This document shows positions 7,148-20,055 of a stretch of 44,526 nt of DNA, piece after piece. Origin of the DNA: Verrucomicrobiia bacterium (GTDB lineage: Bacteria > Verrucomicrobiota > Verrucomicrobiia > Verrucomicrobiales > DEV007); contig JAGRPB010000019.1 in the NCBI GenBank assembly GCA_020439945.1, positions 1 to 44,526 of the forward strand, in the 5' to 3' direction. The notes below the pieces were generated by a model. It worked only from the letters and a program-made list of their open reading frames with translations, had not been told where the DNA came from and ran no database searches. A program made the position numbers and the translations under genes. Each line of letters starts with the position of its first letter. The stretch's first letter is position 1.

Positions 7148-10100
7148 ATGGCCATTCACTGCGCACTCCATCACCGAACGGTTTACCGCTACGATCGACC
7201 GGTCACGCTGGGTCCCCAGGTCGTCCGCCTGCGCCCCGCACCGCACAACCGGACGCCCATCCTGTCGTACTCGCTGAAGATCGGCCCGCAGCCGCATTTC
7301 CTGAACTGGCAGCAGGATCCCCAGGGAAATTTTCAGGCGCGGATCGTGTTTCCGAAACCGGTCAAGTTTTTCGATATCACGGTCGATCTGACCGCTGACC
7401 TGACGTCGATCAATCCCTTCGATTTCTTTCTCGACGAACACGCCCGGACGGTGCCGTTCGAGTACGATGAATGGCTGACCAACGAACTGGCTCCTTTTCG
7501 CCGTCTTCCGGCGGGGGAACCGGGTCCGCTGCTGAAAGCGTTGGTGGAGGAATCCCGGCCTAAGCCGGAGGAAGTGACGATCGATTTCCTCGTTCGCGTC
7601 AATCAGTTGCTGGAAAAGAAGATCGACTATCTCATCCGCATGGAACCGGGCGTTCAGGCCCCGGAGGAAACGCTGGAGAAGGGATCCGGGTCCTGTCGGG
7701 ATTCGGCCTGGCTACTGGTGCATGTACTCCGGCGTCTCGGTTTCGCGGCGCGGTTCGTTTCCGGATACCTGATCCAGCTGAAGCCCGACATCAAGGCGCT
7801 CGACGGTCCGACGGGCACGGATGTGGACTTCACCGACCTGCATGCGTGGGCGGACGTTTACCTGCCCGGCGCCGGTTGGGTGGGGATGGACCCGACTTCG
7901 GGCCTGATGGCGGGCGAGGGTCACATTCCGCTGGCGGCGACGCCTGACCCGCCTTCCGCGGCCCCGATGACGGGCTACGTGATGACGGAGGACGTGGAGA
8001 CGGAGTTCGAGTTCGACATGAAAGTCGAGCGCGTCCACGAGACGGCTCGAGTCACCGCGCCCTATACGGAAGAAGAGTGGGAAGCCATTGATACGCTCGG
8101 CAAGGCGGTGGAAGCGCGGTTGGAATCGGCCGACGTGCGCCTGACCATGGGTGGTGAGCCCACCTTCGTTTCGATCGACGACATGGAAGGCGACGAGTGG
8201 AACACCGCCGCGATGGGGCCGATGAAACGCGGTCTGGCGGACGAACTGCTCCACCGGCTGAAGAACCGTTTCGCGCCCGGCGCCTTTCTCCACCATGGCC
8301 AGGGCAAGTGGTATCCGGGGGAGCAACTGCCTCGCTGGGCGTTCAGTTGTCACTGGCGTCGCGACGGGATTCCCGCCTGGGAAGATCCCTCGCTGATCGC
8401 GGACGAAAAGGAAGACTACGGGCACACCTGCAAGGAAAGCGGTGAATTTATCAATCGCCTCGCCAAGAAACTTGGCGTGGGTGGCAAACACATCCAGGCC
8501 GGCTACGAAGACGCCTGGTACTACCTGTGGCGGGAGCGCCGACTGCCGGCCAACGTCGATCCTTTCGACTCGAAGCTCGACGATAAGATCGAGCGGGAAC
8601 GTCTGGCGCGTGTGTTTGAGCGCAAGCTCGACAGCGAGGTCGGGCACGTCCTGCCTCTGTCGCGAGGCAACTCGGAGTCCGGCTGGGTGTCGGGACCGTG
8701 GTTTTTCCGGCCGGAGCGGCTTTACCTGATTCCCGGTGATTCGCCCATGGGATTTCGCCTGCCGCTCGAAAGCCTGCCCTGGACCGAGGAAGACCTCGGA
8801 TGGATGACCACGCCGGTCGATCCGACGGTTTCGCGCGATCCTTTTCCGAGACGTCGCATGCAGGGGCTCTGGACAGAGCCGGGTCGGGCGTTCGCAGCCG
8901 ATACTCCGGTCATCCGTGAGCAACCGCGCGACGGATCCGGCGATGAACGGATCGGGACCGGCAGGGATCGCAAAGGGGACGCCAAAGGCGCACCGGGCTA
9001 TCAGGGCAGCCTGCCGATTCCCGAATGGTTCGGAGAATCGATGGACGGACTCGTCCGCACCGCGCTCTGCGTGGAGCCGCGCGAAGGGAAGCTGAACATT
9101 TTCATGCCACCGCTGCGGGCGGCCGAGGACTACCTGGAACTGGTCGCGGCGATCGAGGACACCGCCTCGGAGCTGGGCACACCGGTGATGCTGGAAGGCT
9201 ACCTGCCGCCGCGCGACCCGCGCCTGAATCACATCAGCGTGACACCCGACCCGGGCGTCATCGAGGTGAACATTCACCCGGCCGAAAACTGGGAGCAGCT
9301 CAAGGGGGTGACGCGGGGAATCTACGAGGATGCGCGGCTTACCAGACTCGGCACGGAAAAGTTCCGCGTCGATGGCACCCACACCGGTACTGGCGGCGGC
9401 AACCACATCGTGGTCGGCGGATCGACGCCTTCGGACAGCCCGTTCCTGCGGCGTCCCGATCTCCTGCGGAGCCTGGTCGCCTACTGGCACAATCACCCGT
9501 CGCTCTCCTACCTGTTCTCCGGCGCCTTCATCGGACCCACCAGCCAGGCGCCGCGGGTCGATGAAGCGCGAAACGATTCAGTCTACGAACTCGACCTAGC
9601 TTTCCGGCAACTGCCGAAGCGCGACCAGGCGGGGGGCAATCCGCCGTGGCTGGTGGATCGGGTGCTGCGCAATCTTCTCGTCGACCTGACTGGGAATACC
9701 CACCGGGCCGAGTTCTGCATCGACAAGCTCTACTCGCCCGAGGGTGGCGCGGGACGTCTCGGTTTGTTGGAAATGCGCGGGTTCGAAATGCCGCCGCATG
9801 CGGACATGAGCCTCGCCCAGCAATTGCTGGTCCGGGCATCGATCGCACGGTTTTGGGAGGATCCTTATCTGGCCGATCCGGTCCGCTGGGGCACGGGACT
9901 GCACGACCGCTTTCTGCTTCCGCATTTCATCTGGGACGATTTCACGGACGTGCTGGACGATTTCAACCGCGGTGGCTTCGCCTTCGACCCTGCGTGGTTC
10001 GAGCCGCACTTCGAATTCCGGTTCCCGGAACTCGGGTCGGTGGCGCCGTCGGGTGTGAAGCTGGAAGTCCGCCAGGCGATCGAGCCATGGAATGTGCTGG

Positions 10101-16078: not shown

Positions 16079-17086
16079 TCACGAGATCTTCACGACTTCA
16101 CCCGTCCGAGCCGATTCTTCGGCGGCGAGGCAGGCTTTGACCGCTTCGCGACTTTCTTCGGGGGTGATGATGGAGGGCGTCTCGCCTTTCAGCACGCAGT
16201 CGGCGAAATACTCGAGTTCATCACGCAGGGCACCGCGCAGCTGGCCACGCAGGTCGGGCCAGTAGGTGGTGTCGGGGCAGCGAGAGCCGTCCTTGTCCAC
16301 GATCATCAGGTTGGGATGGGTGTCGTGAATGGAGACCGAGCCCTCGGTGCCCACGATTTCGAGCCGCTCGTCGATTTGGAAAGGCGTGGTGTCAGGCAGG
16401 CACCAGACCGATTCCAGAATGCAGCTGGCGCCGTTTTCGAGCCGGTACATCACCTGTCCGAGATCAGGATTGGCGTGGTCGCGAAACTGAACCGTCTGGG
16501 CATAGGCGGTGACGGCGCGTGAATCGCTCATCCAGAACATGAGGTCGGTGTCGTGAACGCAATCGCCGATGATGGGCCCGATCTTGTCGAGCACGCTGGC
16601 GCCGACCCAGGCGGGAAGATTGCGCCGGGAATACATGGAGATGACGCGTCCGATCTTTCCCGCCGCGATGGCTTCCCGGGCGGCGGCGTAGCGGGGATTG
16701 AAGCGGCAGATGTGCCCGACCATGAAGGAACCGCTGGCCCGGTTGGCGGCTTCGACGATCGCGTCGCAGTCCTCGACCGACGAGGCCATCGGTTTTTCGA
16801 GAAAGACGTGTTTTCCGGCTTCGAGCGCGGCGACAGTGGGCTCCACATGTTGGTCCCACATCGTGGTGATGCTGACCGCTTCGATTTCCGGGTCGGCGAG
16901 CATTTCCCGGAAGTCGGTGTAGCGTTTCCCGGCCGGGACGCGGAAGCGCTCGCCGACCTCCTCGAGTCGCGACTCCGTGCGGGTGCAAATTCCGGCGATC
17001 TCCACCTGCGGGATGCCATCGAGCGCTTCGCAGTGTTTCTCGCCGAACCAACCCAAACCGATAATGCCATGTTTCACCTGTCTCAT
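16079..17086 (-). CDS. Gfo/Idh/MocA-family oxidoreductase
   Basis: A 335-residue NAD(P)-dependent dehydrogenase of the glucose-fructose oxidoreductase / inositol dehydrogenase family. The Rossmann fold begins KHGIIGLGWFGEKHCEAL; the diagnostic EKP motif is in AGKHVFLEKPMASS near residue 97, and the C-terminal alpha/beta domain carries GDCVHDTDLMFWM, placing His/Asp residues where the catalytic His is expected. The C-terminus (EESREAVKACLAAEESARTGEVVKI) is typical of the family. Substrates are usually sugars, inositols or their amino derivatives; the exact one cannot be read from sequence. It converges with the FAH/SDR pair across the palindrome at 15999-16070 and may be functionally linked to them in sugar-acid use. 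Its start is followed upstream by the GxxExxY element. Confidence 0.9.
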   Translation of the reverse strand: MRQVKHGIIGLGWFGEKHCEALDGIPQVEIAGICTRTESRLEEVGERFRVPAGKRYTDFREMLADPEIEAVSITTMWDQHVEPTVAALEAGKHVFLEKPMASSVEDCDAIVEAANRASGSFMVGHICRFNPRYAAAREAIAAGKIGRVISMYSRRNLPAWVGASVLDKIGPIIGDCVHDTDLMFWMSDSRAVTAYAQTVQFRDHANPDLGQVMYRLENGASCILESVWCLPDTTPFQIDERLEIVGTEGSVSIHDTHPNLMIVDKDGSRCPDTTYWPDLRGQLRGALRDELEYFADCVLKGETPSIITPEESREAVKACLAAEESARTGEVVKIS

Positions 17087-17142: not shown

Positions 17143-17167
17143 GAATGAGGAAGGCAGGAAAGCAGGA
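17143..17167. repeat. Left terminal inverted repeat of GxxExxY element
   Basis: 25 bases with core AAGGCAGGAAAGCAGGA at 17151-17167. It is the inverse of 17609-17633 apart from one G/T-compatible mismatch. It lies between the oxidoreductase start and the GxxExxY gene. Confidence 0.75.
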
Positions 17168-17210
17168 TGATTTTCTTGTATGAGGAAGGGATCGTTCGTT
17201 AGGTTTTGGA

Positions 17211-17588
17211 ATGTCGTTGGAATTGAAAGATTTGAGCTCGGTAGTAATCGGTGCCGCTATCGAAGTGCACCGACAACTGGGACCCGGTTTTCTGGAATCG
17301 ATCTACGAGAACAGCCCGCGAATCGAGTTGCGGAAGCGGGGCGTAGTCGCCGAATTTCAAAAGGAAGTGCGGGTGTTCTACGACGGTGAAATGGTAGGGC
17401 TTCACCGCGTAGACCTGTTGGTGGCCGACCAATTGGTCGTCGAATTGAAGGCGATCAAAGCTCACGATGACGTGCACTTCGCCCAAGTCAGGAGCTACCT
17501 GAAAGCCCTGAACCTCAAGCACGGTCTCCTCATCAACTTCGCCACCCATCCCCTCACCGTGAAACGCGTCATCGCTCCAACGGAGTGA
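17211..17588 (+). CDS. GxxExxY protein (PD-(D/E)XK_3 family)
   Basis: A 125-residue protein with the naming motif at residues 26-32 (GFLESIY) inside VIGAAIEVHRQLGPGFLESIYE. The family has a PD-(D/E)XK nuclease-like fold; the expected residues are visible as Asp68 (HRVDLLV) followed by Glu78-x-Lys80 (VVELKA). The C-terminus (YLKALNLKHGLLINFA) matches the family. Function is not established; members are widespread, often multi-copy, and some are found in rRNA intervening sequences. Here the gene is enclosed by 25-bp inverted repeats and faces the riboflavin synthase gene. The ATG at 17211 gives the usual length. Its own promoter is not obvious. The intact acidic/Lys set argues the protein is under selection rather than decaying. 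Confidence 0.9.
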   Translation: MSLELKDLSSVVIGAAIEVHRQLGPGFLESIYENSPRIELRKRGVVAEFQKEVRVFYDGEMVGLHRVDLLVADQLVVELKAIKAHDDVHFAQVRSYLKALNLKHGLLINFATHPLTVKRVIAPTE

Positions 17589-17608
17589 AAGAAGAGAATA
17601 GAAAAAAT

Positions 17609-17633
17609 TCCTGCTTTCCTGCCTTCCTTATTC
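17609..17633. repeat. Right terminal inverted repeat of GxxExxY element
   Basis: 25 bases with core TCCTGCTTTCCTGCCTT at 17609-17625, the inverse of 17143-17167. It overlaps the final codons of the riboflavin synthase gene, whose TAA is at 17628-17630. Read as RNA across the element, the two ends could pair into a long stem. Confidence 0.75.
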
Positions 17634-18218
17634 GCTCTGTAGTCGTTCCAGGTACTTTGCGAGCATATCGAACTCCAGGTTCACTCGCTTACCCGCCGCA
17701 GCGCTTCCGAGGTTGGTGACTTCGGCGGTGTGGGGGATGATCCAGAGGGTGAAGCGATCGTTCTCCAGTTCGGCCACGGTCAGAGAGATGCCGTCGACGC
17801 AGATGGATCCCTTGCGAATCACATAACGAGCGAACTCGGACGGAAGCGCGATCTCCAGGCGGTGATCCTGCCCGACCGCTTCCCAGGCAAGGATCTCGCT
17901 GACACAGTCGACGTGTCCCTGCACGAAGTGTCCACTGAGACGATCACCCACGGCGAGGGCGCGCTCCAGGTTCACGAAGTCGCCGGCTTTCAGATCTCCG
18001 AGATCGGTCACGCGCAGCGTTTCGGCCAGCAGATCGAAGGCCGCTGTCCCCTCCGCCAAGTCGATGACAGTGACCGTCAGGCAGGCACCGTTTACCGCCA
18101 CGCTCTCGCCGATGGCCAACTCGTCGGCAAAAGGAAGTCGCACCACGAGCCGGGCGCCGGTTTCCACCGGTTCCAGTGCGGCGACTTCACCGCGTGCCTC
18201 AACGATTCCCGTGAACAT
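17628..18218 (-). CDS. ribE: Riboflavin synthase, alpha subunit
   Basis: Riboflavin synthase dismutates two 6,7-dimethyl-8-ribityllumazines to riboflavin and a pyrimidine. The 196-residue protein starts with the invariant MFTGIVEARGEV and has the two lumazine-binding repeats: the first includes SVAVNGACLTVT and LAETLRVTDLGDLKAGDFVNLERAL, the second GDRLSGHFVQGHVD and GSICVDGISLTVAELENDRFTLWIIPHT. The stop codon lies inside the right inverted repeat of the GxxExxY element, so the last residues (LERLQSE) may have been set by that insertion. The start overlaps the upstream antiporter gene by 20 bases, so riboflavin synthase appears to be translated at the end of the Mrp operon; the two functions are unrelated, and this is probably shared transcription. 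Other rib genes are not in the window. Confidence 0.95.
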   Translation of the reverse strand: MFTGIVEARGEVAALEPVETGARLVVRLPFADELAIGESVAVNGACLTVTVIDLAEGTAAFDLLAETLRVTDLGDLKAGDFVNLERALAVGDRLSGHFVQGHVDCVSEILAWEAVGQDHRLEIALPSEFARYVIRKGSICVDGISLTVAELENDRFTLWIIPHTAEVTNLGSAAAGKRVNLEFDMLAKYLERLQSE

Positions 18219-20055
18219 GATCGGTGTGACTCAGATAGGAGACGACAAACAACAGCGCCAACAACAGGACCGCAAGACAGGCGGTGATGCCAATCGGGAA
18301 AGCTCCCTGTTCGCAGCGGGTATAGACCACCGCTTTTCGTCGCGCGATCTCGTCGGCATCGTGGCCCTGCATTTTCCAGACGGGCATCATCGCGGTGGTG
18401 GCCAGGTAGGAGGGCCCGTGGGCGAAGAACCGGACGATGGCGGGAACGGCGCAACCATTCACCACGCGGCCGACCACGGCGTTGATGCCATTGAGTGAAC
18501 GATCCATGAGATCGTAGAAAAGTTTGCCGCCCTTGCGGTAAAACCAGTCGGTATCGAGCGAGATGGTCGAAGTTCGTTTCAGCAGCGGCAGGAACAGGAA
18601 GAACACCAGCGCCGAAAGCATCAGCAGCTGCATCTGGGTGACGACGTGAGAGACGGTCCAAGCAGTGTAATCGACGTGGTAAGGGAGAATCGCGTAAAGC
18701 GGAGCGGGATAAATGCCGAGGAAAAGGCAGAGGAAGGCGAGGAACCCCATCGCCGCCAGCATCGATTTCGGCGCTTCCTTCGGCCGGAGCCCGCGATCGA
18801 CGTTGAAGAAAACGAAATACGGAAACTTGATCCCGGCGTGGAGGAACACACCCGCGCTGGCGGCCTCGAGAATGAGCCAGGGCCAGAAGAGCCAGGATCG
18901 GTGTTCGGCACCCAGTTCCGCCGCGTGAAGGATGATCGTCTTGCTGGTGAACCCACTCGTTAACGGCACCGCCGAGATCGCCAGCGCGCCGATGGTGCCG
19001 AAGATGAGCGTCCACGGCATGGTCTTGTAGAGCCCGCCGAGTTCGGTGCACTTGCTCCGACCGACCCGGTAGAGGACGGCGCCCGCCGACATCCAGAGCA
19101 GCGACTTGTAGATGATGTGGCAGAAGGCGTGGGCGGTCGCGCCGCTGATGGCGATCGGACCGCCGATTCCCGCGGCCGCCACCATGAAGCCGACCTGGTT
19201 GATGATGGAGTAGGCGAGAATGCGCCGCATGTCGTTTTCGAGCAGCGCATAGACGATCCCGTAGATCGACATCAGGCAGCCGATCCAGATGAGCGGATCC
19301 CAACCGTCGAAACCGCGAAGCAGCACGTAGACCGCGGTCTTGGTGGTGTAAGCGCTGAGAATGACGCCCCCGGTCACGCTGGCTTCGGGATAGGCATCGG
19401 AAAGCCATGCCGACAATGGCGGCGCGCCCGCGTTGACCAGAATGCCGATCAGGAGCAGCCAGGTACCGAGGTTTTGTTGGGTGCTGAAATCGAACCCGTT
19501 GAAAGCGATCGATCCCGTCTGGTGAATGGTCAGCACCAGGCCGGCGAGAAAAAAGAGCCCGCCAAACAGGTGAATCATCACGTAGCGGAAAGCGGCGCCC
19601 TTGGCTTTCTCGGTCTTCCGGGCCAGGATGACGAAGGTCGAGCTGACCGCCATGATCTCCCAGAAGACGTAGAGGGACAGCAGATCGCCCGCAAAGACCG
19701 CCCCGAGCGCGCTGCCGATGTAGACAAGCGCCGCGATGTGCTGGGTGCTCTTCTTGACGTAGAACGCGAACACAAAGGCGGCGACGGCGTTCAGCGTAAA
19801 GATGAACCCGAAGGCCTTGGCCAGGCGGTCGACTCGCAGCAGGGACAGCGAATCATTGAGCCAGGGAAAGAATTTCACCGACCAACTGAGAGTGGCCTGT
19901 CCTTCCGCCGGTGTCGGCAGCAGGCAGATGTTCAGAAAGGCGAGGCAGGGGAGAAGAATCACCCACGCGCTCCGCCAGTGGCCGCGAAACAACGGCACGA
20001 ACAACGCCCCAATAAAGAGGATGAGAAACGGGGGGAAATCAGCGAAGAGATTCAT
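18199..20055 (-). CDS. NuoL/MrpA-type antiporter subunit (third D-like subunit)
   Basis: A 618-residue polytopic membrane protein of the proton-translocating NuoL/M/N and MrpA/D family. The key channel residues are present: the TM5 Glu in LYVFWEIMAVSSTF, and the broken-helix Lys in YTTKTAVYVLLRG after AWLSDAYPEASVTGG. The discontinuous-helix region (NDMRRILAYSIINQVGFMVAAAG, HAFCHIIYKSLLWMSAGAVLYRVG) is intact. It carries a longer C-terminal extension than the other two D-like subunits, with two further helices, reminiscent of NuoL/MrpA, but lacks the MrpA C-terminal MbhD/MbhE regions, which are encoded separately upstream. It is the last antiporter gene: it overlaps the 114-residue membrane protein gene by 17 bases and riboflavin synthase by 20. 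Probable role: ion channel module of the Mrp complex. Confidence 0.88.
   Translation of the reverse strand: MNLFADFPPFLILFIGALFVPLFRGHWRSAWVILLPCLAFLNICLLPTPAEGQATLSWSVKFFPWLNDSLSLLRVDRLAKAFGFIFTLNAVAAFVFAFYVKKSTQHIAALVYIGSALGAVFAGDLLSLYVFWEIMAVSSTFVILARKTEKAKGAAFRYVMIHLFGGLFFLAGLVLTIHQTGSIAFNGFDFSTQQNLGTWLLLIGILVNAGAPPLSAWLSDAYPEASVTGGVILSAYTTKTAVYVLLRGFDGWDPLIWIGCLMSIYGIVYALLENDMRRILAYSIINQVGFMVAAAGIGGPIAISGATAHAFCHIIYKSLLWMSAGAVLYRVGRSKCTELGGLYKTMPWTLIFGTIGALAISAVPLTSGFTSKTIILHAAELGAEHRSWLFWPWLILEAASAGVFLHAGIKFPYFVFFNVDRGLRPKEAPKSMLAAMGFLAFLCLFLGIYPAPLYAILPYHVDYTAWTVSHVVTQMQLLMLSALVFFLFLPLLKRTSTISLDTDWFYRKGGKLFYDLMDRSLNGINAVVGRVVNGCAVPAIVRFFAHGPSYLATTAMMPVWKMQGHDADEIARRKAVVYTRCEQGAFPIGITACLAVLLLALLFVVSYLSHTDHVHGNR

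Follow-up and report, generated by a model that had tools for sequence, protein, structure and literature searches.

A GxxExxY gene between matched inverted repeats next to ribE: a candidate minimal mobile element with REPIN-like anatomy

Next to the riboflavin synthase gene ribE of a Verrucomicrobiia bacterium lies a short gene of the GxxExxY family, a family for which we know of no function, and on either side of it stands a copy of one repeat, the two in opposite orientation. This arrangement raises the question of whether gene and repeats together form a small mobile unit and, if they do, whether the GxxExxY protein is its cargo or its agent. The window referred to below is the whole stretch of DNA that was analyzed (44,526 nucleotides), and the features that matter here are the following.

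16079..17086, minus strand: Gfo/Idh/MocA-type oxidoreductase, the host gene on the other flank of the unit
17143..17167, plus strand: left arm, GAATGAGGAAGGCAGGAAAGCAGGA, made of quasi-tandem GCAGGAA units; the inverted match continues to 17176
17211..17588, plus strand: GxxExxY gene, 125 aa, predicted Cas4-like PD-(D/E)XK fold, D68/E78/K80 intact
17609..17633, minus strand: right arm, which repeats the left arm in inverse orientation at 24 of 25 positions; the inverted match starts at 17600, and the ribE stop codon lies inside
17628..18218, minus strand: ribE, riboflavin synthase (NF006767, 229.6 bits), a flanking host gene

The initial annotation described near-perfect 25-bp inverted repeats around a single PD-(D/E)XK-like gene, with the right repeat supplying the stop codon of ribE, and this description holds in every part. 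The arms match in inverse at 24 of 25 positions, and the match can be extended to 34 nt at 88%. They enclose one open reading frame, that of the GxxExxY gene, and no other gene, and the ribE stop codon (17628-17630, minus strand) falls within the right arm. The inverted-repeat score of the unit is 22, against a maximum of 13 at approximately 400 random places in the window; this difference, together with the recurrence of the repeat core in the genome, rules out a chance repeat. The oxidoreductase gene adjoins ribE also in genomes that lack the unit, and ribE served as the anchor for locating the orthologous site in relatives.

The protein encoded by the window gene matches both the GxxExxY family TIGR04256 (128.7 bits, cut-off 35) and PF13366, PDDEXK_3 (124.1 bits, cut-off 22). 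Across 44 aligned homologues, the motif residues G26, E29, and Y32 are invariant, as are D68, E78, and K80, which had been singled out as the intact key residues Asp68 and Glu78-x-Lys80. No relative was found in the PDB at the sequence level (best E 0.57). The AF2 model (mean pLDDT 93.7) has Cas4 SSO0001 as its top PDB fold match (4ic1; Z 10.6 over 101 residues, Foldseek E 3.5e-5); below it rank lambda-type exonucleases and Hjc resolvase (Z 7.5). The core fold of the model and the D...(D/E)XK residues of the alignment place the protein in the PD-(D/E)XK superfamily; it folds, in the model, like Cas4 and is a predicted nuclease. The likeness to Cas4 and RecB-like nucleases lies in this modeled fold core, and the difference lies in the small size (125 aa only) and in the absence of the conserved Fe-S cysteines: the window protein contains no cysteine, and the 44 homologues have no conserved cysteine column. 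It is therefore not a Cas4 with an Fe-S cluster. The dN/dS ratio of the window gene versus its orthologue in a related genome (G003) is 0.063, which reveals purifying selection and indicates that the GxxExxY gene is maintained.

The exact 17-nt core of the arms, AAGGCAGGAAAGCAGGA, occurs at four places in the 5.9-Mb source genome, which make up two inverted pairs, and the reversed-pattern control occurs at none. The second exact pair, on contig C21, is gene-less, its cores lie 84 nt apart, and by our own reading of the flanks it has the end of an ftsW-like gene on one side and the start of a murG-like gene on the other. On contig C221 there is a further gene-less pair, a near-exact one. The core had been expected to recur in inverted pairs about 440 bases apart around GxxExxY genes; the inverted pairs were indeed found, whereas those other than the window pair are gene-less and only 58-84 bp apart. 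This recurrence also disposes of the objection, raised at the outset against mobility, that the core might occur only here. Among 59 genomes of the family, the exact GCAGGAA-type core is present only in the source genome (G000) and in G003, which are the two genomes with the cognate GxxExxY gene, that of G003 being orthologous. A solo GCAGGAA-type arm was seen at the same place in both species (L011, G000:C427; L099, G003:C401), with both flanks similar.

Empty sites among relatives had been proposed as a mark of mobility, and the ribE site provides one. Of four congeneric genomes, G000 and G003 have the site filled, with proteins 85% identical and both 17-nt cores kept, while in G001 the same neighbors are found with no unit and no arm-like stretch. 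In G002 the gene is absent and one arm-like stretch is present, matching at 17 of 23 positions (9 of 2,000 shuffles were as good); this remnant rules out G002 as a second clean empty site. The G003 unit (L096, G003:C139:18300-20782) carries a nested insert at approximately 19545-19743 of the contig, with inverted ends of its own (ACCAGATCCAAATAAGATCTGGACGATT type).

In G001 alone, the interval between nuoF and nuoG holds a CAGGAT-type element (here and below, nuo and hsd gene names are our own reading of the translations). G002 and G003 have a short gap at this place, and no arm-like stretch is visible in either of these empty sites. The right arm of this element is amplified approximately five times in tandem (L178, G001:C21, ~7780-7930). 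An element with the same arm type is found between nuoD and nuoE in G000 and G003, and a further element of G001 is flanked by hsdR- and hsdS-like genes. Presence and absence at orthologous sites, as expected of transposable elements, was thus observed at the ribE and nuoF-nuoG sites, between genomes of different species whose flanks are too diverged for a target-site duplication or an exact junction to be defined.

The source genome contains six PF13366 genes. The window core does not surround the other five, which have other arms or none: three of them have long inverted ends of different sequences (GGACAGGATTTACAGGATTT, TCGCGCAGAGACGCGGAGAGGGGGAG, and AATTCGTG-rich), and the same variety of arms was found in three congeners. 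Several individual loci deserve mention. One is a decayed GxxExxY copy with three in-frame stops, on both sides of which the arms are still recognizable (L021, G002:C51:3412-3759). Another is a single open reading frame with two GxxExxY-like halves, the second without the E-x-K residues (L028/L034, G003:C564:620-1351). A long palindrome around CAAATGG...CCATTTG flanks one GxxExxY gene on both sides (L171, G197:C32; L280/L281), and similar palindromes occur inside gene-less elements of G197. At some loci, L123 and L124 among them, translation of the GxxExxY protein runs on into the right arm, which then forms its C terminus (e.g., VHSVSSVV, SLRSLRSLR), a circumstance that would mislead annotation.

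The association of GxxExxY genes with inverted ends extends across domains. At 68 named loci from approximately 20 phyla, archaea included, 72% score at least 13 for inverted ends, versus none of 122 offset controls and 12% of mismatched arms; two of the named loci with clear arms belong to Methanosarcinales archaea. At 70 loci of the source phylum, 74% score at least 16, versus 5% of mismatched arms. About a quarter of GxxExxY loci have no clear arms. GxxExxY genes are present in 250 of 384 sampled genomes of the source phylum (two thirds), often in several copies. A canonical GxxExxY protein (L107, used as the query in place of the window protein) was compared with 50,697 phage records, where nothing matched, and with 72,556 plasmids, where 8 matches were found; these counts led us to reject a phage or plasmid gene and make spread by phages unlikely.

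Arm copies are very numerous in some genomes. The motif ACCACRRAG-n(1-3)-CACRRAG reaches 251 copies per genome, and its reversed control almost never occurs. Among the listed arm sites with neighbors at most 1 kb apart, which are samples made up of the first places in each genome, 28 pairs are convergent and 1 is divergent, and 24 of the 28 are too short for the GxxExxY gene. Three dispersed gene-less elements of 129 nt in G203 are 89-94% identical, and G197 has two such elements, about 270 nt long and on opposite strands, with a 97% match that spans 402 bp. An exception to the inverted pairs is G096:C12:5300-6677, where eight same-strand arm copies lie in tandem, 159-228 nt apart.

At the genome level, these arms depend on the gene. 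Of 250 genomes with PF13366, 157 contain the ACCACRRAG-type motif; of 134 that lack PF13366, 15 do. The mean copy numbers are 10.2 and 0.27, respectively, and the dependence persists within families (Mantel-Haenszel odds ratio 7.3, p 1.4e-6). The CACGRAA arm type behaves similarly: a GxxExxY match at E 1e-15 is present in 240 genomes, 110 of which contain this type, compared with 13 of the 144 genomes that have no such match. The prediction that a clade mobilizes its own arm type in trans was not borne out for CACGRAA: copies of this type show a modest excess in genomes with the clade bearing CACGRAA arms (odds ratio 2.4), the other arm type has an excess almost as large (2.1), and the ratio test is null (p 0.26). 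The recurrence of gene, repeats, and gene-less copies suggests that a family of very small mobile DNA elements has been overlooked.

At most ends, the arm is an array of three CACnRAG-like 7-nt units with a spacing of 8-10 nt; in the dominant arm, ACC stands outermost and is followed by three CRCnRAG units with spacers of 1-4 nt and a period of 8-10. Sixty-nine elements were analyzed in which both arms could be parsed into three units, the arms being taken as nearest to the gene and not selected for likeness. Arm versus arm, the degenerate unit letters agree at 738 of 828 positions (89%), versus 59% between elements and a maximum of 65% in 200 shuffles. Spacer lengths agree in 94% (42% between elements, shuffle maximum 52%), and spacer letters in 50% (39% between elements, shuffle maximum 49%). 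Units and spacer lengths are thus matched and spacer letters only weakly, which indicates selection on units and phasing; a recent duplication of one arm would have preserved the spacer letters as well. The window type, GCAGGAA, is a minority type, so these statistics come mostly from relatives of the window unit.

This pattern is consistent with recognition of units in phase. Symmetric internal loops in a hairpin could likewise keep spacer lengths equal; an RNA hairpin as the cause of the matching is made less likely by the mismatches between arms, which show no wobble bias (41 versus 31), and by the weak conservation of the spacer letters. Moreover, arm type tracks the GxxExxY protein tree, with 23 changes versus 45.5 when shuffled and none of 200 shuffles as low, an association that linkage and common descent alone could explain.

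Among known systems, the closest in anatomy is RAYT/REPIN, where a gene is flanked by short repeats and gene-less inverted doublets are dispersed in extragenic space (PMC3116915). These doublets are thought to be mobilized in trans by the product of the RAYT gene (PMC3116915). The window element has the same anatomy, its gene lying between repeats that also occur as dispersed gene-less inverted doublets; such doublets were found on C21 and C221 and, across the phylum, in the predominance of convergent over divergent pairs among the listed sites. It is nevertheless not a RAYT, because its enzyme is unrelated: RAYT is a Y1 (HUH) transposase, and the sole gene here encodes a PD-(D/E)XK protein. 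It also differs in that the repeats are arrays of 7-nt units at 8-10-nt spacing in place of REP palindromes, and GxxExxY elements reach the archaea. MITEs are likewise short, gene-less, and dispersed in near-identical copies with inverted ends, but no classical (DDE) transposase parent was seen here, and a target-site duplication is not demonstrable between different species.

A second parallel is provided by the 23S rRNA intervening sequences with an S23p ORF, which are approximately 430 nt long and whose inverted repeats accompany a single small ORF of unknown role (PMC4990558). In Coxiella, tandem heptamers lie upstream of the ORF of such a sequence (PMC4990558). Size, inverted repeats, and a single small ORF are shared with the window unit. 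The protein (PF05635) is in contrast unrelated, the period is 7 nt as opposed to 8-10 nt in GxxExxY arms, and the sites are inside 23S rRNA and not between genes. PF05635 four-helix-bundle loci in our own data (L068-L086, L309-L337) are flanked by inverted arrays whose 7-nt units include TCAGTAA, TTTTCAG, and GAATCGT. At 28 PF05635 loci of the source phylum, 46% score at least 15, versus none of 56 offset controls, with period 7 in 10 of 13. These flanking 7-nt arrays strengthen the parallel with the 23S intervening sequences.

We consider it fairly probable that the window unit represents a copy of a minimal mobile element of REPIN/RAYT-like organization with an unrelated enzyme. Such an element would consist of two inverted arms and the GxxExxY gene only, each arm being a short array in which approximately three 7-8-nt units keep a fixed phase. 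The GxxExxY protein, which the model depicts as a stripped-down Cas4-like PD-(D/E)XK nuclease, would probably recognize the units of its own arms and would probably cut DNA there or close by. Either the element or a gene-less arm pair would then be copied or moved into intergenic sites, and the gene-less pairs may, by analogy, be non-autonomous derivatives, as REPINs are to RAYT transposases. We infer a threefold role for the protein: it would bind the arms, cut, and drive the movement. The initial suggestion of a mobile unit with GxxExxY as cargo or agent is in this sense supported, with mobility and nuclease activity still deduced from sequence comparison and the model.

The protein could instead be cargo, with arms and gene moved in trans by another enzyme or by errors of inverted-repeat replication or recombination, and with a nuclease role that is unrelated, for example in repair or defense. 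The PF05635 genes bear on this directly, since unrelated proteins share the architecture with its 7-nt units and arms of such build therefore need not be read by a nuclease. Arms in 15 genomes with no detected gene and the failure of the clade-to-arm test in trans point the same way. We nonetheless regard cargo as unlikely, given the strong dependence of arm copy number on GxxExxY presence, within families too, the tracking of the protein tree by arm type, the invariant catalytic residues, and a window unit that holds the GxxExxY gene alone. A homing-like process, in which the nuclease cuts pre-existing solo arms or gene-less pairs that are then repaired from a gene-bearing copy, would make use of the common gene-less pairs and solo arms, and would suit the G002 ribE site, with its arm-like stretch (17/23) and absent gene, and the solo arm common to G000 and G003 at one other locus. 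It appears improbable: no arm-like stretch is found at the ribE site of G001 or at the empty nuoF-nuoG sites, and homing into shared sites would make arms alike, whereas the gene-bearing units of one genome differ in theirs.

It is just as hard to credit that the arms are an immobile regulatory structure and serve a vertically inherited host gene as processing stems, terminators, or autoregulatory binding sites. Up to 251 motif copies per genome, dispersed gene-less pairs, presence and absence at two loci, and a cross-domain distribution all speak against it, as do the lack of wobble bias and the barely conserved spacer letters. What it would explain is the position of arms near the GxxExxY gene start, the capacity of matched arms to pair in RNA, and the location of some units within operons, between nuo genes.

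Beyond the mobile element that we propose for the window, a broader reading can be put forward tentatively, as somewhat short of probable: GxxExxY nucleases would be enzymes of minimal mobile elements across domains, alongside a parallel four-helix-bundle/heptamer class, and the two together would explain many orphan repeats. A PD-(D/E)XK nuclease would then act alone, with no DDE, HUH, tyrosine, or serine recombinase, and would recognize phased 7-nt unit arrays and spread itself together with gene-less inverted arm pairs. In the open literature, to which our search was confined, the word GxxExxY occurs in two of 5.39 million papers, neither of them apparently on such elements; of six arm sequences searched there as text, only one matched, in a connexin 26 paper.

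GxxExxY genes gain from these results a context that makes their function testable, with matched arms, predicted binding units and spacing, and gene-less candidate substrates that number dozens or hundreds in some genomes. If the nuclease proves to be the mover, this would be a new kind of element, the architecture itself being REPIN-like, and a large class of dispersed short repeats that now lacks an agent would have one. Should the broader reading be true, both classes would cover a large share of those short tandem and inverted repeats of environmental genomes that lack an explanation.
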